Part shown: piece after piece, positions 7,382-48,621 of the stretch
How the letters are laid out: each line of letters opens with the position of its first letter
How positions within the stretch are numbered: the stretch's first letter is position 1
NCBI GenBank assembly: GCA_903878805.1
Contig: CAIRJF010000033.1
Span: 1 to 64,000, forward strand
Origin: an uncultured Verrucomicrobia subdivision 3 bacterium
GTDB taxonomy: Bacteria; Verrucomicrobiota; Verrucomicrobiia; Limisphaerales; UBA11358
Direction of reading: 5' to 3'
Length of the DNA: 64,000 bases
Notes under the pieces: generated by a model
What the model saw: only the letters and a program-made list of their open reading frames with translations
What the model was told of the DNA's origin: nothing
Database searches by the model: none
Made by a program: the position numbers and the translations under genes

Positions 7382-10102
7382 TCAACCGGCCTTGTTCACA
7401 TTGTCAGGGCGGTTGGCAAAAAAAAGATACACACACATCCCAAGTCCGACGATGAAAGCCGCCAGCGTCACAAACAACGACCCGTTGGGCAGGCTGAAAT
7501 AAAACTCCACCGTATGCTGGCCGGGCGGCACGGACACGCCGCGCATGAGGAAGTTGCAGCGCAACAGTTCCGCCGGTTTGCCATCCACAGTCACGCGCCA
7601 GTTGGGGTCGTATTTGTCGTTGAGCAGGAGGATTGACGGCGTGGTGGCGGTAGCGGTAAAAATTATTTTCTTGGGCGAGTAGCTTTGGAATTCCACCGTG
7701 CCGGAATTTTCATTCGTGGCCACGGACGGCAAATCTTTTTGCGGCGTGGAGATCAAAACAGTTTTTGCCGGATCGAAATTGAGGTCGGCGAGCGTTTGCA
7801 GGTTGGCGGTGTCGTTGGTGTTGACCTGCCAGTTGCCGTAAAGTTTCGCCCGCGGCAGTGCGCCGGTGAAGTCGAAGAGCGCGTAGCGTCCGTTGGGGTC
7901 CGGCGCGGCGGTGAGTTCTTCGAGCCGTTGCGGATTGAGGATGCCGGGCTTGGGCACAATTTCAAAACGCTGGACGATGTGAAAGCGGTGCTGCACCGGG
8001 TCGAGCTGCTGGTTCATCACGTCGAGGTAGCCAGCGGGGCCAAGAAGATAGCGGGTGTTGGCCAGTTCCCAGCGGCGGGCAAAGAGCGGCGCAGATTCCT
8101 GCGTGCCGCGCGGGGACAGCGCCTCAAGATACGTCTTCAAATCTTCCGCGACGCGCGACATCTGGATCCAGTCGAGGCACTGGATGTTGTAATACGGAAA
8201 GTGGTGTTGCATCCATTCGATGCGATAAACTTGATCTAATAATTCCATACCTGCCGGCGCGCGGAATGGCAACGCGGCCACGCGATGTTCGTAGGGTTTT
8301 TCCCGGAGAAATTCGACGATGGGATTGAGCGTGCCAACCTCGTATTTTTGTTTGTAATCCCAATGGATCACGAACGGCAAATCGGCGCGGCCCAGATCAA
8401 AAACCAGAAATGCGCCGAGCAGAATACCGCCGAGCTTGGCGCGCGGCCCGGTAAAATAGCCGGCGATGACCAGCATCAGAATCAACAACGCCACAGCCAG
8501 CAGCGCAACAAACCAGCCGATTTGCCCGAGGCTGAAGGTCGCAATCTGGTTGGCGAGAATGTCATCGGGATACCCCATTTTTTTGAGGTAGCTGACGAAG
8601 CTAGTTTTTTGAGAGGCAAAAATCATCCAGCCCAAGAGGCTCGCCCCAAAAATTCCCGCGCCGGTGAAGGCACATTTGCGGTCAAAATTTCCGGCGCGCG
8701 CCAACCAGCTTTTTAACAGCGCGACTAGGCCGGCCGATTTTGTATTGGCTGCGTTCAGATAGCGCTGGCTCAAGATGTTCACCGCGTAAGCAAAAAGAAT
8801 CGCCACTGCCCAGCTCAAAAACATCATGAATTTGATCGGATTGCGGATGGTTGAGAAATAAGGAAGTTTATAGACCATCCCATAAAACAAGGGCGCAAAA
8901 CGTCCCCAGGCCAGCGGCAGGGAAATCACCACCACCGCCGCCCAAAACCAGATCATTTTTTTCTGCGCATCCGGGAAAGGCGAATCTTTCTTCCGCAATG
9001 ATTGCGCCACCGCCCACACAGCCAGCAGGCAGACGAGGATGCCGCAGTAATTATTGCCGCCCGAAAAGCGCATTACTCCTGACGGCGGCGTGCCGGTGGC
9101 GCCGCTGTCAATGAAACGGTCTATCTCCGGGCTGCGCCCCATGCCGCCCCAATAGACGCCGCCTTCATAATACGGCTGCAACTGCGGCATCATGCCATTG
9201 GGCGTGTCCATTTTGTAACCGAATACACCAGGAACGAAGACGGCCAGCGTTTCGGTTTTGGGCAGGCTCCATTGTGTGGCCCAGTCCCAATGTTGCAATT
9301 TGGTTTCGGTATCCTGCGCCGTCCCCGCCACGCCATGAATCGAGGTGCCGACCAAGGAAGTGACAGATTGCGCTGCGATGAAACCTGCAAATATAGCGAT
9401 GGTTGCCACCCTTCCAAACCCGCGCAAAGTTTTGGCAGCCATTGAACCTCCGGTTTCCATCAAGGACTTGAACAGGACAAAACCAGCGATGAAAATACTG
9501 TAAAGAGCGCCAATGTCGGCTGCCTCGATGACATTGAGGCCAACGCAAAAGCCCGCGAGGGCAATGCGCACCCACCGCGTCAAACTCCCGGTTTCAAAGG
9601 TATTGGCCTCAATCAGTGCCAGCGCCAAAAAATTTAGTGCCAGGGCGATTTGGTGGGAGGCCGTGCCCCAGCAAGCATCGCAAAATGCAGTGGAACCCAG
9701 CATCGCGGCCAGCGCCCCCAAGACGGTGGCCAGCGGCGCAAACTTCAGGCTGCGAAAATAAGCCCACGCTCCCAAGCCGACCATGAACAAAGCAACCGGA
9801 GCCAGAAATTTTGAAAAGCCTACCGGTCCCAGGACAAATTTAACGAAAGCGGTAATGCCCAAAGCGAATGAGCCGGCGGCAAAGCCCACATCATTTAAGT
9901 CGTCCCAAGCCCCAGTCAACGCGTCAGGGAGTTTGAGCCAGTCCACGTTTTGCTGGCCTAGCGGGCCGTCGTTGGCAAAGTGCACATAGCCCGGTAGAAA
10001 ACTCCGCCAGAACAGCACCACCAGAATGACAGTCAAAATTACCACGAGCCACATACCTGAATGACTCGGCGGGTTCTTCTTTTCGATTTGGCTGGATTTC
10101 AT
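7382..10102 (-). CDS. Large polytopic membrane protein, YfhO-like
   Basis: About 906 residues. An N-terminal span is followed by the loop SFLPGYVHFANDGPLGQQN, a dozen or so further hydrophobic segments, and then a large extracytoplasmic C-terminal part. The tail (LLLNDKYDPNWRVTVDGKPA, then GVSVPPGQHTVEFYF, then a last membrane helix) is the hallmark of YfhO-family GT-C-like proteins. B. subtilis YfhO is linked to sugar decoration of lipoteichoic acid; the function here is unknown. Two starts are possible: ATG 10102, used here, and ATG 10150, which adds 16 residues. Neither has a strong ribosome site. Its place beside a GT4 gene suggests a role in envelope glycan assembly. Confidence 0.78.
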   Translation of the reverse strand: MKSSQIEKKNPPSHSGMWLVVILTVILVVLFWRSFLPGYVHFANDGPLGQQNVDWLKLPDALTGAWDDLNDVGFAAGSFALGITAFVKFVLGPVGFSKFLAPVALFMVGLGAWAYFRSLKFAPLATVLGALAAMLGSTAFCDACWGTASHQIALALNFLALALIEANTFETGSLTRWVRIALAGFCVGLNVIEAADIGALYSIFIAGFVLFKSLMETGGSMAAKTLRGFGRVATIAIFAGFIAAQSVTSLVGTSIHGVAGTAQDTETKLQHWDWATQWSLPKTETLAVFVPGVFGYKMDTPNGMMPQLQPYYEGGVYWGGMGRSPEIDRFIDSGATGTPPSGVMRFSGGNNYCGILVCLLAVWAVAQSLRKKDSPFPDAQKKMIWFWAAVVVISLPLAWGRFAPLFYGMVYKLPYFSTIRNPIKFMMFLSWAVAILFAYAVNILSQRYLNAANTKSAGLVALLKSWLARAGNFDRKCAFTGAGIFGASLLGWMIFASQKTSFVSYLKKMGYPDDILANQIATFSLGQIGWFVALLAVALLILMLVIAGYFTGPRAKLGGILLGAFLVFDLGRADLPFVIHWDYKQKYEVGTLNPIVEFLREKPYEHRVAALPFRAPAGMELLDQVYRIEWMQHHFPYYNIQCLDWIQMSRVAEDLKTYLEALSPRGTQESAPLFARRWELANTRYLLGPAGYLDVMNQQLDPVQHRFHIVQRFEIVPKPGILNPQRLEELTAAPDPNGRYALFDFTGALPRAKLYGNWQVNTNDTANLQTLADLNFDPAKTVLISTPQKDLPSVATNENSGTVEFQSYSPKKIIFTATATTPSILLLNDKYDPNWRVTVDGKPAELLRCNFLMRGVSVPPGQHTVEFYFSLPNGSLFVTLAAFIVGLGMCVYLFFANRPDNVNKAG

Positions 10103-12959: not shown

Positions 12960-14269
12960 TCAGAGATGCAAAGGACTCCTTCCAATCGCCGAGACAGTGC
13001 CCGTGCAGATGAATGGGATGCCATGTGATGAGCCATCACCGGCAGCGGTGGTTATTTTCATGGTTTGGGTTTCCGTATAAATCCCATTAACCGGCGTGGT
13101 ATCGGTTGTGGTTTTACTCAAAACACCATTGAAGTAAAATTTCAAACTGCTGCCGCCATTGATGAACGTGTCGTCAAACATTATGCCGGCAATCTGAAGT
13201 CCGCTTACAGTGGAATTTGCTAATCCCGTCATAGTATTTTGCTTGCCTGAAGTAATCTTGGGTTCACCCGAATTGAAACTCATAATGTCAGAAACATTCA
13301 ACATGATGTTAGTGCCATTAAGCACAACCACTCCATTGCCCACCAACGCCAAAGTCGCATTTGTGGGAAAACTGTTCGTCGGCCAATTTCCTTCTAAATG
13401 TTCATCAAGCGCCAGCGCGTTCAAAATGCCTTTAGTTGTCAGTGAAGAACGGAGATTGGCGATGCCGTGGTCAATACAAGGCTATTGGTATTGCTGTCAC
13501 CTTGCTTGAACAGTTCAAGACGGATTGTCAAGTTTAGTGAAGGCAGAGTAATTACCGGTGGTGTGGTGGATTCAATGGTATACAATTGAGCGACTTCGTT
13601 GGAGGAAAAGGCACGGTTGTAAATTCGGATGTCATCAATAACGCCTGGAAAATATTCACTATACCCATTATCAATAACTTGGCCGACAATCAACTCGCCA
13701 ATTCCTGTGAAGGTTGCTTTCGGTGTGTTTGCATATTCCACTCCGTCAATGAACATTTGAACGTTTCCAGAGCTATAAACACAAACTAACTGATGCCATG
13801 AAGCATCCGGGCTTACCCCAGAAAAAACCGCTTGATTCGGCCCGTCGAAATGCACACCCCAGTCCGGCTGGAGAAAACATCCAAACACCGCATTGTAAGT
13901 ATTCTGTGAATCTCCATAATCAATTGCGACAAAAGTGCCGCCATTTGTAACCACGCTATCAGCCTTCACCCATAGGCTCAAAGTCCGATCAGCCGCACCA
14001 GAAGGAAGCGGTGAACTTGGTGAGGTGGACAACATATAGCTGCTCAAACCGTCAAAATGAAACGCCCGATTGGCAGTGCCAAATCGGTCGGGACATGGGG
14101 TTGCCCCATAGTTGGTAAGGTCGTTGCCAAATCCGCTCGCGTCTTTACTATTTCCACTGAACGGATAATAAGCCACCAAACCGTTGGTGAGGAAGGATTG
14201 AGCCTGAACCTGAACGGCCACACACGCGGTGATGGCGAGAATCCAAGACGGAATTTTATTTGTCTTCAT
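12960..14269 (-). pseudogene. Secreted LamG-domain protein broken by a frameshift
   Basis: The first frame (ATG 14269 to stop near 13439) encodes a signal peptide (IPSWILAITACVAVQVQAQ) and a LamG/concanavalin-type domain: GLVAYYPFSGNSKDASGFGN, RTLSLWVKADS, WHQLVCVYSSGNVQMFIDGV and GVIDDIRIYNRAFSSNEV. It ends abruptly after LVLTTASPISVLH. A second frame, shifted by one base relative to the first and open from about 13475 to 12960, continues with LRSSLTTKGILNALALDEHL, then TSGKQNTMTGLAN and GTVSAIGRSPLHL. These look like a C-terminal domain repeated on other verrucomicrobial secreted proteins. One indel near 13460-13480 would rejoin them into about 435 residues. Possible causes are a true mutation, a sequencing error or programmed slippage; no slippery run is seen. 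Confidence 0.72.
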
Positions 14270-14450
14270 AGTATTTTCCCAGTTTAGAAACAACATGCCC
14301 TGACATTATCCTGTGTCCGGTGCATTGGCCTGCCGTATGAGGCGTTCTGCATCAGACAGACAATCCTCCACAGGTATAGTTTTTTCCCAAAAAAGCACAA
14401 GAAAAACTACCGCGATGATATGTCTTGATTAGTGATTTTTCCGGCTGCTT

Positions 14451-15311
14451 TTATTTACCAACTTCCATCTGGCATTGAAATTTTTCCGGCCAGTTCACAT
14501 GAGGCGCGAGCGTGGCCGCATCCATGTGCGTGGCGAGCGAGGGCACGGGCATGACGAGTCGGTAGCGCCGACCAAAAATGATTTGCCGCCAGTTGTAATA
14601 CCAGGCAAACATCTGGCTGGCTCCCCGGTAGCGGGAAACGAACGGTTGCGTCAGCAAATCCAGCGGGTTCAAAACGTGGTGCTTGGTGAGGCTCAACCAC
14701 ATGGCGGCATCCACGTTCCAACGCCGGATTTTCGTGTAACAGCGGAAGGCGTCGCAGGTGGCTTGCAAAGTTTTTTTCCGCGTCAAGAATGTGCAGGTGG
14801 TGCCGTTGGCCGTGCGCCAGACCTGACCCTGCTCGACAGCCAGCCGCATTTTGTGCCGATGATATTCGTCGCGGTGCAGGTCTAGATGGTCGGCGAGGGA
14901 GCAGAAATCAATTTCAGGCTGGTGCTTCAGCAGATCCAGCGCGAGGTGAAAACTGTCCGGCAGGTAAAAATAATCGTCCTCGGCGAGATAGACAAATTCG
15001 GCGGCGTCCTGGCCGGTCAAAATTTCGAGCTGCCGGCCGAAAGTATCCTGATTGCCGAGACCCGGCAGGCGCAGCAGCACGAAGTCTTCTGCCGGGAACA
15101 GCGTGGTGAACAACGTTTCATATTCCGGCGGGCAGCGGTCGAGCAGCACCCACACTTTCGCGCGCAAATTACCGAGCGAAGCCTTGAACGAGCGCAGGCA
15201 TAATTCCGCGAGGCGGTATTTGGAGTCCGCATGGATGGGCGCCGGCATACGGGAAATTCCCGGATAAATCCGGTAGGCCACGGCCACGTCGTATTTTCGT
15301 TCCTCGCTCAC
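14451..15311 (-). CDS. Putative GT-A glycosyltransferase
   Basis: About 286 residues, no signal peptide. KYDVAVAYRIYPGISRMP begins the fold. AELCLRSFKASLGNLRAKVW and VLLDRCPPEYETLF follow, and AAEFVYLAEDDYFYLPDSFH carries the acidic metal-binding motif (EDD). CSLADHLDLHRDEYHRHKMR and NVDAAMWLSLTKHHVLNPLD come later. The frame is open upstream to 15416 but would then overlap the divergent methyltransferase. GTG 15311 (15317 is an alternative) is chosen because it immediately precedes conserved-looking sequence. The exact family is not recognised. It sits inside the glycan island, convergent with the broken LamG gene's side and divergent from the methyltransferase. Confidence 0.65.
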   Translation of the reverse strand: MSEERKYDVAVAYRIYPGISRMPAPIHADSKYRLAELCLRSFKASLGNLRAKVWVLLDRCPPEYETLFTTLFPAEDFVLLRLPGLGNQDTFGRQLEILTGQDAAEFVYLAEDDYFYLPDSFHLALDLLKHQPEIDFCSLADHLDLHRDEYHRHKMRLAVEQGQVWRTANGTTCTFLTRKKTLQATCDAFRCYTKIRRWNVDAAMWLSLTKHHVLNPLDLLTQPFVSRYRGASQMFAWYYNWRQIIFGRRYRLVMPVPSLATHMDAATLAPHVNWPEKFQCQMEVGK

Positions 15312-43468: not shown

Positions 43469-44878
43469 TTACTTCACGCCCGGAAACGCCATGTAATTTT
43501 TGGCGTTGGTGTAGCAGATGTTTTTGATCATGGAACCGACGAGGCTATCATCATCTGGAATCAGGCCGTTCTTAATATCACGGCCGATAAGATTGCACAA
43601 CGTGCGGCGGAAATATTCGTGCCGCGGATAGCTCATGAACGAGCGCGAGTCCGTAATCATGCCAATAAAACGTGAGAGCAAGCCGAGGCTGGACAGCGCA
43701 TTGATCTGCCATTCCATGCCTTCCTTCTGGTCGAGAAACCACCACCCGGAGCCGTATTGAATTTTTCCAGCAATCGTGCCGTCCTGAAAATTTCCAATCA
43801 TCGTCGCGAACACATAATTGTCCGCCGGATTCAGATTGTAGATGACGGTCTTGGGCAATTTATTTTCCGAATCGAGCTTGTTGAGATAAGCCGAGAGCGT
43901 GACTGCCTGCGGAAAATCGCCAATGGAATCAAAGCCCGTGTCTGGTCCGAGTTGCGTGAGCAAGCGGTCGTTGTTGTTGCGCAACGCGCCGAGGTGAAGT
44001 TGTTTGGTCCAGCCGCGCTTCGCATCGAGATGGCCGAAAAACACCATCATAAACGACGCGAACTGCGAATGTTCCAACAAAGAAACGACGTCGCCCTTGC
44101 GCGCTTTGTCAAAAATTCCGGCCGCGACTTTTTCGCTGCAAAAATCCGCGAAGCAATGGTTCATGCCGTGGTCGGACAAGCGACAGCCTTGCGAATGAAA
44201 ATATTCGTGCCGCTTTTCCAGCGCGCTGATGAACGCGCTGAAACTACTGATGTCCACGTTCGCGGCGGCCGCAAGTTGCTCCACCCATTTATTAAAACCA
44301 ACGGGCGAATTTACCGTCAGCGCCTTGTCGGGACGAAACGCCGGCAACATTTTTGTCGGATGACCGGACTTCGCAAACGTGCGGTGATATTCCAAATTGT
44401 CCACCGGATCATCCGTGGTGCAGACAACTTTGACCTTCATCTTTTTCAGCAAGCCCTGCGTCGTGTAAGCCGGCGTGGCGAGTTTCGCGTTCGCCTGTTT
44501 CCAGATTTTTGCGGCGGTTTTTTCGCTCAGCAAATCCGTGATGCCGAAGTAACGCTTCAGTTCGAGATGCGTCCAGTGATACAGCGGATTCCGCAGCGTG
44601 TGCGGAACCGTTTTCGCCCACGCGTTGAATTTTTCCTCCGGCGTGGCGTTGCCCGTGCAGAATTTTTCCGCGACGCCGTTGCTGCGCATCGCGCGCCATT
44701 TGTAATGGTCGCCTTCCAGCCAGATTTCAAATAGGTTTTTGAACTGCCGGTTTTCCGCGATGTCCTTCGGCGAAATGTGGCAGTGATAATCAAAAATGGG
44801 TTCGTCCGCCGCGAACTTGTGGTAAAGCCGGCGCGCGGGCTTGTTGCCCAACAGAAAATCTTCGTGGATGAAAGCCAT
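43469..44878 (-). CDS. uxaC: Glucuronate isomerase
   Basis: Isomerises D-glucuronate to fructuronate and D-galacturonate to tagaturonate. It is an amidohydrolase-fold enzyme of 469 residues. EPIFDYHCHISPKDIAENRQ carries the HxH metal motif. FEIWLEGDHYKWRAMRSNGV, VVCTTDDPVDNLEYHRTFAK, MNHCFADFCSEKVAAG, FDSIGDFPQAVTLSAYLNKL and SDSRS-like TDSRSFMSYPRHEYFRRTL are family blocks. A 25-codon relic of a uxaE C-terminus lies directly upstream, showing that the gene once sat behind a uxaE copy. Confidence 0.95.
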   Translation of the reverse strand: MAFIHEDFLLGNKPARRLYHKFAADEPIFDYHCHISPKDIAENRQFKNLFEIWLEGDHYKWRAMRSNGVAEKFCTGNATPEEKFNAWAKTVPHTLRNPLYHWTHLELKRYFGITDLLSEKTAAKIWKQANAKLATPAYTTQGLLKKMKVKVVCTTDDPVDNLEYHRTFAKSGHPTKMLPAFRPDKALTVNSPVGFNKWVEQLAAAANVDISSFSAFISALEKRHEYFHSQGCRLSDHGMNHCFADFCSEKVAAGIFDKARKGDVVSLLEHSQFASFMMVFFGHLDAKRGWTKQLHLGALRNNNDRLLTQLGPDTGFDSIGDFPQAVTLSAYLNKLDSENKLPKTVIYNLNPADNYVFATMIGNFQDGTIAGKIQYGSGWWFLDQKEGMEWQINALSSLGLLSRFIGMITDSRSFMSYPRHEYFRRTLCNLIGRDIKNGLIPDDDSLVGSMIKNICYTNAKNYMAFPGVK

Positions 44879-44881
44879 AAG

Positions 44882-44959
44882 TTATGCCCTCGACAATAAC
44901 GGTTTCATGTGCCGCTCGAAAAGATTTTTGTGTTCGCGGCATTGCGCGTTGAGATGGAT
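44882..44959 (-). pseudogene. Relic of a uxaE 3' end
   Basis: Read on the minus strand, this stretch encodes LNAQCREHKNLFERHMKPLL plus SRA and a stop. It matches the C-terminus of the intact uxaE at 47359-48621 (NLFERHMKPLL shared; DNA 44901-44925 nearly identical). An in-frame TGA at 44960-44962 closes it upstream. It lies 3 bases before uxaC and suggests a lost or moved second uxaE copy. Confidence 0.75.
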
Positions 44960-45013: not shown

Positions 45014-45829
45014 TTATTTCGCGGCCAACTGCTGCTGGTATTGCGCCATGCCTTCCAATTCTTGCGTTGCCCGGGCTTGCAGCGAACCGGCTGGAAAATT
45101 TTTTACCCAAGCCGCCGCCGCAGAAATGTTTTTTTCGCCCCATTGATGCACCACCGTTAAGACCGCCTCATCTTGGCCCGGTCCGGGCGGCATTTGTTCC
45201 ACCACCAGATTGGCGGCCTGTTCCGGTTCTGTTTGTGACAAAACATAGGTCACCCGCTGCATGAGCTGGTCGCGCTGACTGCCCGCCGGCTGTTTGCTCG
45301 CCCACACAAACGCCGCTGCGGAATCGCTCGCCGCCCATTGTTGCACCAAATCCTGAACCACGTTGCTGGGTTGTTGGAGGCTCTGCGCCATTTCCAAGGC
45401 GAGCGACGGATTAATTTGGATCTGGGCAAAGCAGATGGCTTCCACGGCTTGGCCGCGTTCTATACTGGCGGGCATGGCCGCGACCGCCGCCAGCGCACCC
45501 TTAAGATCGCGCGTCGCCCATTCGCGCCAGCGTTTCATCTCTGTCCGCCGCGCTTCCAGCCGCTCCTGCAACAATGCCCCTTCAGAATCTGTAGCGTTCG
45601 TTTGAGCGTTATCAGCCACCGGCCTAGTCGTGCTCAAATCGCCAGCGTAACTTCCGTCCGTTTGCGCCACCATTGACGATGGTGGTTCAATTATTTTTTG
45701 CATTTCAACTTTTTGAATCGAGGCTGTCGGTGTCAGGGCTGTCGAAGCGAGATTAGTTTTCGCACTATAAATAATCACCCAGCAGACCGTCAAAATCGCG
45801 GCGCAAAATAATAAAACTTTTTTATCCAT
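45014..45829 (-). CDS. Membrane-anchored protein of unknown function with helical repeats
   Basis: 271 residues. An N-terminal hydrophobic helix (KVLLFCAAILTVCWVIIYSA) anchors or exports it. A Ser/Thr-rich linker follows, then a helical part with loosely repeated units of the form W/A-x-P-A/S (REWATRDLKGALAAVAAMPA, QQWAASDSAAAFVWASKQPA, HQWGEKNISAAAAWVKNFPA). Such A/W-rich repeats are frequent in verrucomicrobial proteins, and their function is not known. It lies upstream of the uxaC locus on the same strand, with about 140 bases before it holding a perfect 14-bp hairpin. Confidence 0.6.
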   Translation of the reverse strand: MDKKVLLFCAAILTVCWVIIYSAKTNLASTALTPTASIQKVEMQKIIEPPSSMVAQTDGSYAGDLSTTRPVADNAQTNATDSEGALLQERLEARRTEMKRWREWATRDLKGALAAVAAMPASIERGQAVEAICFAQIQINPSLALEMAQSLQQPSNVVQDLVQQWAASDSAAAFVWASKQPAGSQRDQLMQRVTYVLSQTEPEQAANLVVEQMPPGPGQDEAVLTVVHQWGEKNISAAAAWVKNFPAGSLQARATQELEGMAQYQQQLAAK

Positions 45830-45922
45830 AAAAAGGCGCAGGTTTGTTGGGCATTAAGTCCGTTTCAAATCAAGCTTCGCGGTTTTTTATTTAAAAGCAT
45901 ATGTATTTGAGATGTTGCCAGC

Positions 45923-45955
45923 CAACGCGCGATGGGCAGTCCCCATCGCGCGTTG
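45923..45955. terminator. Perfect 14-bp hairpin after the lectin gene
   Basis: 45923-45936 pairs with 45942-45955 around a 5-base loop. It lies 14 bases beyond the lectin gene stop on the minus strand. No T-run follows, so it is a terminator-like or transcript-stabilising hairpin. Confidence 0.6.
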
Positions 45956-45968
45956 CCGACTTGAACTT

Positions 45969-47102
45969 TTACTGGCTGATCAAAATCCAGCGCTGGCTCA
46001 TCGCCGTGTTATTGAAACTCCATTGATCCATTTGGGTGCCAGCGCTCATGCTGAAGCCCGGATCTTCCAGCACCTTGCCGCTGTGAAGATTGTAGAAGGT
46101 ATAACTACCGTCGCCATTATACACCGGTTTCCATTGGCCGTTGTCGCCCGCCACCGTTGAATACTGGATGATGTTCGCCCCATTGTTGGTGGATGTGCCC
46201 TGCACGGTGGCATCTAGCCCGCTGTTCACGTTGGCCAGATGATAGTAACCACCGGTGGTCGCCGTGAAAGTCCACTCCGCATTTTTGCTGTCCTCGACAA
46301 AAGGCCACTGGATGATCGCGCCGCCATTCGTTAAGACAGCTCCCGCCACATTCAGCGCCAGCCCACTCTGAACATTCAGCGCTTCATAAGTGCTGGCAAA
46401 TTGGCCGGCCAACGTGGCGGTCATATTTTCAATGGTCACCTTGCCTACCGAATACTGCGGCGCCCCCATGGAATATGTGCCGCATTTCACAATGCATCCC
46501 TTGTTCGTAGCGAGCGTATTATTCCCGTAGATTGTGCCCACATAGTTCATGGTTGAATTCTGTTTGCCTGCCCAAACATTGATGAATCCCGAATTGTCGT
46601 TCTTACAATAAATCTGCACGATGAACGTATACCAATTAGTCAGACACGGCGCGGTATAGTTGAACGATTGGTTCCCCCCATAAGTGCCGCCGAAAGGAGG
46701 ATTGTTATACGCGGTAAACGTCCCCGCGCCCGAGGTTTTCAACAGAAAATTTGGTGCCTGATAGGAACCATCATCGCCCTGCGCAAACAATTGAAAGATA
46801 CAGCCGCCCGCCTCGCTGCCACCAGAAGGATTCTGGATGTAAACATCAAATTTAAAAGTCACCGTCGAACCCGTCGGCACCAGACCGTGCGTGGCCAGCT
46901 CCGCCCGCGGCCGGTTAGTGAAATTCGTGCCGGTATAATTCACCGAACAGACTGCCTGCACGTTATTGTTCACCTGGATAGTGCCGGTATTCACCAAATC
47001 CTGAGCCCAGTTATTAAAATTTTGCAAGCCGTATTGCCCCTCCGCATTGAAGGCCAGCAGGGCTATCGCTGCCCCGCCGATGGTTAATTTGAGTAGTTTC
47101 AT
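45969..47102 (-). CDS. Secreted lyase-like protein with C-terminal ricin-type lectin domain
   Basis: 377 residues. The signal peptide (LTIGGAAIALLAFNAEGQYG) leads to a jelly-roll domain: NRPRAELATHGLVPTGSTVT, FKFDVYIQNPSGGSEAGGCI, WYTFIVQIYCKNDNSGFINV, WAGKQNS. This pattern, with an RAEL near the beginning, recalls heparin-lyase-I/PL20-type folds; catalytic residues cannot be assigned. From about residue 240 a ricin B-type (CBM13) lectin follows: YEALNVQSGLALNVAGAVLT, AIIQWPFVEDSKNAEWTF, YYHLANVNSGLDATVQGTS, QWKPVYNGDGSYTFYNLHSG. It may bind or cut uronate-rich polysaccharide outside the cell, consistent with uxaE and uxaC alongside. Enzyme activity is unproven. Confidence 0.72.
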   Translation of the reverse strand: MKLLKLTIGGAAIALLAFNAEGQYGLQNFNNWAQDLVNTGTIQVNNNVQAVCSVNYTGTNFTNRPRAELATHGLVPTGSTVTFKFDVYIQNPSGGSEAGGCIFQLFAQGDDGSYQAPNFLLKTSGAGTFTAYNNPPFGGTYGGNQSFNYTAPCLTNWYTFIVQIYCKNDNSGFINVWAGKQNSTMNYVGTIYGNNTLATNKGCIVKCGTYSMGAPQYSVGKVTIENMTATLAGQFASTYEALNVQSGLALNVAGAVLTNGGAIIQWPFVEDSKNAEWTFTATTGGYYHLANVNSGLDATVQGTSTNNGANIIQYSTVAGDNGQWKPVYNGDGSYTFYNLHSGKVLEDPGFSMSAGTQMDQWSFNNTAMSQRWILISQ

Positions 47103-47358: not shown

Positions 47359-48621
47359 TTATTGTCCGAGGAGTAAAGGTTTCATGTGTCGTTCGAAAAG
47401 ATTTTCCGTCACGTTTTTGGCGATGATGGCTTCGTGTTTCTTCAGCGCATTCAGGTAGCGGTCGCCTTTTTTCGCCGCCACCTTGAAGCTGACGTGGAGC
47501 AATTGGCGGAAGCTCGGATTGAACGCCGGATTTTTCTGATCATGACGCAGCGCATCGGTGAACTGCTTGGAACTCCAGCCGTTCACGACGGATGCCGGCG
47601 GCAATTTCGCCTTATCAATGTCAATGACGCTCGCATACGGCGCGCAAAATTCGTCCACGTGCTCGATGGCGTAAGCGTAAATTTCCTTTGCGATTTCCAG
47701 CCCATCGCCGCCCGCTTCCGCGAGGCCGATGAGTTCTTCGAGCCACGTCGTGCCGGCGGTTTTGATGTGCACGCCCGCGCCGAATTTCTTGAGCGCCTTG
47801 CGCATCGGTTCGTAGATGGAAAATTTGTCGCTGCCGGAATGCACACTCAACTTGAGCGTCGGCGGCAAACCATATTTCGCGATGGCGAACGCGATGACCG
47901 CGAGGTCTTCGTTGAACTCCTGCTCGAACTGTTTCACGTCGCCGACGTAATCCACGCCTTTATTGAAACGGCCAGTGAACTTCGGCGCGATGGTTTGAAT
48001 CGGTATTTTCTGGTCGGCAATCGCGGCGAGAATGATGAGCAATTCCGGCGGCGTCTGCGGGCTATCGGTTTCGTCCATGGAAACTTCCGTGACGAAATTC
48101 GCCGCGCCCTTGGCAGCGACGATGTGCGTGTAAATCTTACCGGCGTCCTGCACCGCGAGCAAAAACTTGTTCGCCACGCGCTCGACTTCGGCGCGGGAGA
48201 TTTCAAACGGACGGTCAATGTGCGGAATGGAAACTTTGCCCGTGAGTTCCGGATGACGATCCACGAACGCTTTCACGTCCGCAGCGGCGGCGGGCTTGGC
48301 GATGCTGTCGGCCACGTCAATCGTGAAGAAATCCGACGGCGCGATAAAACGATCCACCGTTTCGAGGCGGATGTGGTCGGCGTCCACGTGATACGATTTT
48401 TTCCAGTTGAGCGCCTTCACCGCGGCATCCGCTTCCGCGCGCAAGCTCGACGGTTCGGTGCCGATGAACGTGTGTTCGCGATTGGATTTGTTCCAGACGG
48501 GAATAAATTCCGCGCCGAGTTCCGTGGCCTTCACGCAGGCTTGCAACTGTGCTTTGCCCTGATGCGCAAAACGGTCGCCCATGCCAAAGGAGAATTTGCC
48601 GAGCGGGAGGTATTGGTTCAT
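47359..48621 (-). CDS. uxaE: Tagaturonate epimerase-family protein (UxaE-like)
   Basis: 420 residues. It begins FSFGMGDRFAHQGKAQLQAC, then FIPVWNKSNREHTFIGTEPS, SYHVDADHIRLETVDRFIAP, NFVTEVSMDETDSPQTPPEL, TIAPKFTGRFNKGVDYVGDV, LKLSVHSGSDKFSIYEPMRK and GVHIKTAGTTWLEELIGLAE, ending LFERHMKPLLLGQ. I place it in the UxaE family, which interconverts tagaturonate and fructuronate and lets galacturonate enter the glucuronate branch. The assignment is from memory of that family and from the uxaC gene nearby. Repeated His/Asp/Glu positions (HADH, VSMDET, SVHSGSD) are consistent with a metal enzyme. Confidence 0.75.
   Translation of the reverse strand: MNQYLPLGKFSFGMGDRFAHQGKAQLQACVKATELGAEFIPVWNKSNREHTFIGTEPSSLRAEADAAVKALNWKKSYHVDADHIRLETVDRFIAPSDFFTIDVADSIAKPAAAADVKAFVDRHPELTGKVSIPHIDRPFEISRAEVERVANKFLLAVQDAGKIYTHIVAAKGAANFVTEVSMDETDSPQTPPELLIILAAIADQKIPIQTIAPKFTGRFNKGVDYVGDVKQFEQEFNEDLAVIAFAIAKYGLPPTLKLSVHSGSDKFSIYEPMRKALKKFGAGVHIKTAGTTWLEELIGLAEAGGDGLEIAKEIYAYAIEHVDEFCAPYASVIDIDKAKLPPASVVNGWSSKQFTDALRHDQKNPAFNPSFRQLLHVSFKVAAKKGDRYLNALKKHEAIIAKNVTENLFERHMKPLLLGQ

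Follow-up and report, generated by a model that had tools for sequence, protein, structure and literature searches.

Why does a second copy of the end of uxaE stand directly in front of uxaC, in a genome whose intact uxaE now lies 2.4 kb further upstream? The window analyzed here, a stretch of 64,000 nucleotides (nts) from a Verrucomicrobia subdivision 3 bacterium, carries on its minus strand the gene order dnaJ-rsmE-uxaE-lyase/lectin gene-271-aa gene-uxaC-ftsK, with a plus-strand tRNA-Val gene between the last two. Both hexuronate genes are intact. uxaC (43469..44878, minus strand; PF02614, NF002794) encodes a glucuronate isomerase of 469 aa; uxaE (47359..48621, minus strand; PF16257) encodes a tagaturonate epimerase of 420 aa and, with one match in the genome, is the only copy. 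The intervening genes are also on the minus strand. The one nearer uxaE (45969..47102), which an earlier note on this DNA had called the lectin segment, encodes a 377-aa protein with a PF14099 polysaccharide-lyase domain and ricin-type lectin domains. The other (45014..45829) encodes a 271-aa protein that had no Pfam match and has homologues beside lectin homologues in two other genomes. The two genes thus adjoin three times (window 45014-47102; G024:C67:6562-8104; G011:C104:32488-33976), and G011 and G024 each have a dozen or more lectin-domain matches of the lyase/lectin type. The tail of the intact uxaE contains a 5-2-5 inverted repeat, GAAAATCTTTTC (47396-47407, minus strand), which is nearly invariant across the clade's uxaE genes despite codon freedom.

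On the minus strand, positions 44882-44928 read in frame as the last codons of uxaE, ending in NLFERHMKPLLSRA and a stop codon; no complete open reading frame remains. Over 44897-44928, 29 of the 32 nts are the same as those at the end of the intact uxaE (47374-47405), and the three differences (GAG/GAA, CGG/CGA, and CCG/CCT) are each synonymous. The local alignment score was 49, compared to a mean of 17.6 (sd 2.4) and a maximum of 34 among 2,000 dinucleotide-preserving shuffles, and a BLASTN comparison of the relic with the uxaE tail, searching within the window, gave an E value of 1.6e-7. The earlier note had proposed a second uxaE tail before uxaC and a comparison with shuffled sequence as the check; with the right frame and orientation and a score beyond that of any shuffle, this tail is real. 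The note had extended it from 44882 to 44959, along a frame that reads HLNAQCREHKNLFERHMKPLLSRA and stops 3 bases ahead of the uxaC ATG (44878). The part from 44882 to 44928 stood, and the provable relic runs on through the stop codon and a CTT spacer to the uxaC start codon (44876-44928). Beyond 44928 there was no detectable similarity to uxaE, and the extension over 44929-44959 ("HLNAQCREHK"; P = 0.12) was rejected.

Of 49 congeneric genomes, 23 contain a 30-mer core of the relic (≤3 mismatches allowed), in single copy except in G021, which has one copy in an intact tail and one in a relic; the reversed control pattern had no match among the 49 genomes. A dispersed repeat was rejected because the 30-mer is single copy in nearly all the genomes that have it. 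A search of Rfam found no element besides the tRNA, and literature searches found no report of such a relic before uxaC.

We compared gene order among 37 genomes of the same genus with a usable uxaC (Limisphaerales MAGs). uxaE is immediately upstream of uxaC in 25 of them, with gaps of 5 to 81 bp; in the nearest genome, G029, the pair is intact with an 18-bp gap. The same order was found in more distant bacteria, and sdhB lies ahead of uxaE in several congeners. Because uxaE is just upstream of uxaC in most of the same-genus genomes, including G029, the ancestral uxaE-uxaC pair that the earlier note had postulated, with gene order in relatives as its check, holds up, and the interpretation of the scar as a vestige of the ancestral junction is supported. 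The relic is closer to the uxaE-uxaC junction of a congener (G071) than to the intact uxaE tail of its own genome: through the stop codon and the uxaC ATG, 48 of 53 nts match without a gap. Because of this match, the relic is most likely the old native junction, from which the tail of the genome's own intact uxaE would have diverged.

The same short piece precedes uxaC in three more genomes, G013, G021, and G030, in which uxaE is gone or elsewhere, a new finding. The alignment scores were 53 for G021, 42 for G030, and 25 for G013 (P = 0.02), with shuffle means of ∼17; thus, the match is significant in G021 and G030 and marginal in G013, where it is backed by synteny with G030. In G021 an intact uxaE lies behind sdhCAB on contig C7, and uxaC, with the second tail, is on contig C142. 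In G013 and G030 the order is sdhB, a terminator hairpin, the decayed tail, and uxaC; uxaE was not found in these genomes, which are 91% and 79% complete, respectively, and the protein sequence of their relics has been lost. These two relics share changes, and their scars may represent one event. AU tests on the uxaC tree rejected a single origin of all four relics (P = 0.015 for one clade) but not a shared origin for the uxaC genes of G030 and G013, or for those of G021, G030, and G013 (P = 0.35 to 0.36). The rejection of one relic clade, the position of this genome as sister to a genome with an intact pair, and the differing gene orders together imply at least three separate break-ups of the pair. 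No relics were found in four other genomes with an orphan uxaC (G015, G016, G070, and G002); the match in G003/G017 was borderline (P of about 0.04), and we do not claim these as relics.

All four relics retain CTTTTC-N18-TTATYGT without an indel, while the bases between the two blocks drift. In this genome the blocks contain a putative −35 element of uxaC, TTTTCG (44917..44922, minus strand), where CTTTTC is identical in all four relics, and a putative −10 element, TATTGT (44893..44898, minus strand), 14 bp ahead of the ATG, where all four have TATYGT. Mismatches to the consensus of the pairs numbered 1/52 in the two blocks and 24/72 in the spacer between them (P = 6e-6, with the motif blocks and the subclade picked post hoc, after the alignment and data had been viewed). 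If sigma-70 rules are valid for the host group, as we assumed, TTTTCR-N18-TATYGT is the top sigma-70-type site in the 75 bp upstream of uxaC in each of the four relics; its promoter score was within the range of shuffles in every single relic (P = 0.10 to 0.38), and the −35 is weak. The orphan uxaC of G070, which has no scar, has a more canonical promoter-like sequence, TTGACT-N16-TAATTT, in the same interval (P = 0.04); the promoter-like sites upstream of most other scarless orphan uxaC genes were not above shuffles.

The −10-like sequence is also found in intact pairs. TAnnnT occurs in 9 of 10 tails that abut uxaC (short-gap pairs of the clade, G014 included) versus 0 of 8 nonabutting tails of the clade (P = 4e-4, ignoring phylogeny); a test restricted to phylogenetically independent pairs had few informative ones and little power. 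It is formed by TTA or CTA at the first Leu of the LLL in PLLLG. One of these codons is used there in 8 of 9 short-gap pairs of the clade versus 11 of 277 times (4%) at other Leu positions in uxaE, which ranks this column first of 32 Leu columns. In both this genome and G021, TAnnnT is present in the tail copy adjoining uxaC and missing from that of the intact uxaE; here the intact tail has TACTCC at the −10-like position. The intact pair of G029, the closest genome, also lacks TAnnnT. Within uxaE, synonymous conservation in the clade's pairs is highest over TENLFERHMKP, a window that is unremarkable in separated uxaE genes; when all 21 pairs were pooled, the synonymous conservation of the tail was unexceptional (rank 74 of 357).

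Given the conservation of the blocks in the scars, together with the TAnnnT and Leu codon pattern, our inference, and the most economical reading, is that the end of uxaE also serves as the promoter of uxaC and is left in place when uxaE moves or is lost. We give a probability of about 0.6 to the reading that the relic comes from the 3′ terminus of an ancestral uxaE and was kept because it holds the putative uxaC promoter; sequence comparisons are what point to the activity of this promoter and to selection having preserved the relic on its account. In the ancestor, uxaE would have stood directly upstream of uxaC, with the promoter of uxaC within the codons of its 3′ end. After the two genes came apart in this lineage, uxaC would have retained the final ∼45 bases of uxaE because they carried the sigma-70-type promoter TTTTCG-N18-TATTGT. 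RNA polymerase would then initiate a few bases ahead of the uxaC ATG, and the leader would be very short. We also lean, by somewhat less, toward the more general proposal that the uxaC promoter constrains synonymous codons at the 3′ end of uxaE and that break-ups of the pair have repeatedly left a "promoter fossil," which would be a recurrent route from coding to purely regulatory DNA.

The main alternative is that the scar has no function, the tail having been left by chance when uxaE moved, was replaced, or was deleted, and having decayed neutrally since. We consider this unlikely, because the same extent of ∼45 bp recurs in at least three break-ups with a constant 18-bp spacing, the blocks are conserved while the middle changes, and −10-like codons are kept in intact pairs. 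Chance retention would nevertheless agree with the loss of the protein sequence in the G013 and G030 relics and with the absence of a start codon ahead of what is retained of the relic frame in this genome; in addition, selection on uxaC itself would force deletions to end just short of uxaC.

Two other explanations give the tail a different role. It could be a recombination or attachment site, where integration of a mobile segment that bore a uxaE tail of its own produced direct repeats around the lyase/lectin and 271-aa genes. Direct repeats of 32 bp do surround this foreign-looking 2.4-kb block, and tyrosine-recombinase-like open reading frames (ORFs) adjoin uxaC in G030 and a partial tRNA-Val in G029. 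However, the repeats enclose only the lyase/lectin and 271-aa genes and no recombinase, the G013/G030 relic lies behind the sdhB terminator with neither an insert nor a second tail, the 30-mer is rarely present twice in a genome, and the relic is nearer to the junction of G071 than to its own intact tail; integration as the origin of the tail is thus quite improbable. Still less probable is retention for the translation of uxaC, by way of a ribosome-binding site or of coupling through the short ORF MKPLLSRA. Although this ORF stops 3 bases short of the uxaC ATG, and GAGGG lies 8 bases before it, the relics of G013, G021, and G030 have kept neither the GAGGG nor the short ORF and its ATG, and the conserved part of the tail sits further upstream.

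Retention as a promoter leaves a choice of events that could have separated the pair in this genome: insertion of the lyase/lectin and 271-aa genes, replacement of uxaE, or a recombination-based integration in the tail would each account for the present arrangement. In the uxaE tree, this genome (G000) and G029 fall in a nine-genome clade that is rejected by the uxaC data (AU P = 0.007); the grouping in the uxaC tree is not rejected by the uxaE data (AU P = 0.30). The conflict hints at a replacement of uxaE in this lineage, and the partial conflict between the two trees in the genus suggests that uxaE has recombined or been transferred independently of uxaC.

In G029 (locus L112), the end of the uxaE tail is duplicated, CTCGGAAAATAA / ATCGGGAAATAA, between the uxaE stop and the uxaC ATG (7613-7645). 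The second copy covers the last ∼12 bases of uxaE and is possibly a trace of the same separating event or a simple tandem duplication. Beyond the pectin-degradation cluster that follows uxaC in G029, 34 bp of the tRNA-Val 3′ terminus are repeated without a tRNA gene (13523-13556), next to the tyrosine-recombinase-like ORF (13607-14824). This looks like the attachment site of an integrative element at the tRNA-Val that is the neighbor of uxaC in this genome. The tyrosine-recombinase-like ORF of G030 (L033, 1395-2429) is directly downstream of uxaC, a gene that may border a hot spot for integration.

The fate of an internal promoter after its host gene leaves can rarely be watched. This genus provides a natural experiment around uxaC: besides intact pairs, it contains pairs with long gaps, genes that stand apart with different upstream regions, and scars at several stages of decay. 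If our reading is true, the change from coding to regulatory sequence is seen several times over, and there is a warning in it that short "gene fragments" before genes may be functional promoters. The case is modest but clean: here a piece of coding DNA has probably survived as regulatory DNA.

Bacterial operons are well known to contain internal promoters that lie within the 3′ end of the preceding coding sequence. The proposed uxaC promoter would be of this kind, with promoter-like elements inside the codons of the upstream gene driving the next one; the difference is that here the gene body has repeatedly disappeared or been relocated, and the tail that would bear the promoter stayed alone. 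Like gene remnants at rearrangement breakpoints, the relic is a short vestige of a once complete gene and is recognized by comparison, but the uxaE scar recurs, equal in extent and in its internal conservation, in at least three inferred break-ups. Finally, the enzymes (PF16257 and PF02614), order, and strand are those of the uxaE-uxaC hexuronate pair in relatives and more distant bacteria, whereas in this genome the lyase/lectin and 271-aa genes have come to stand between the two.
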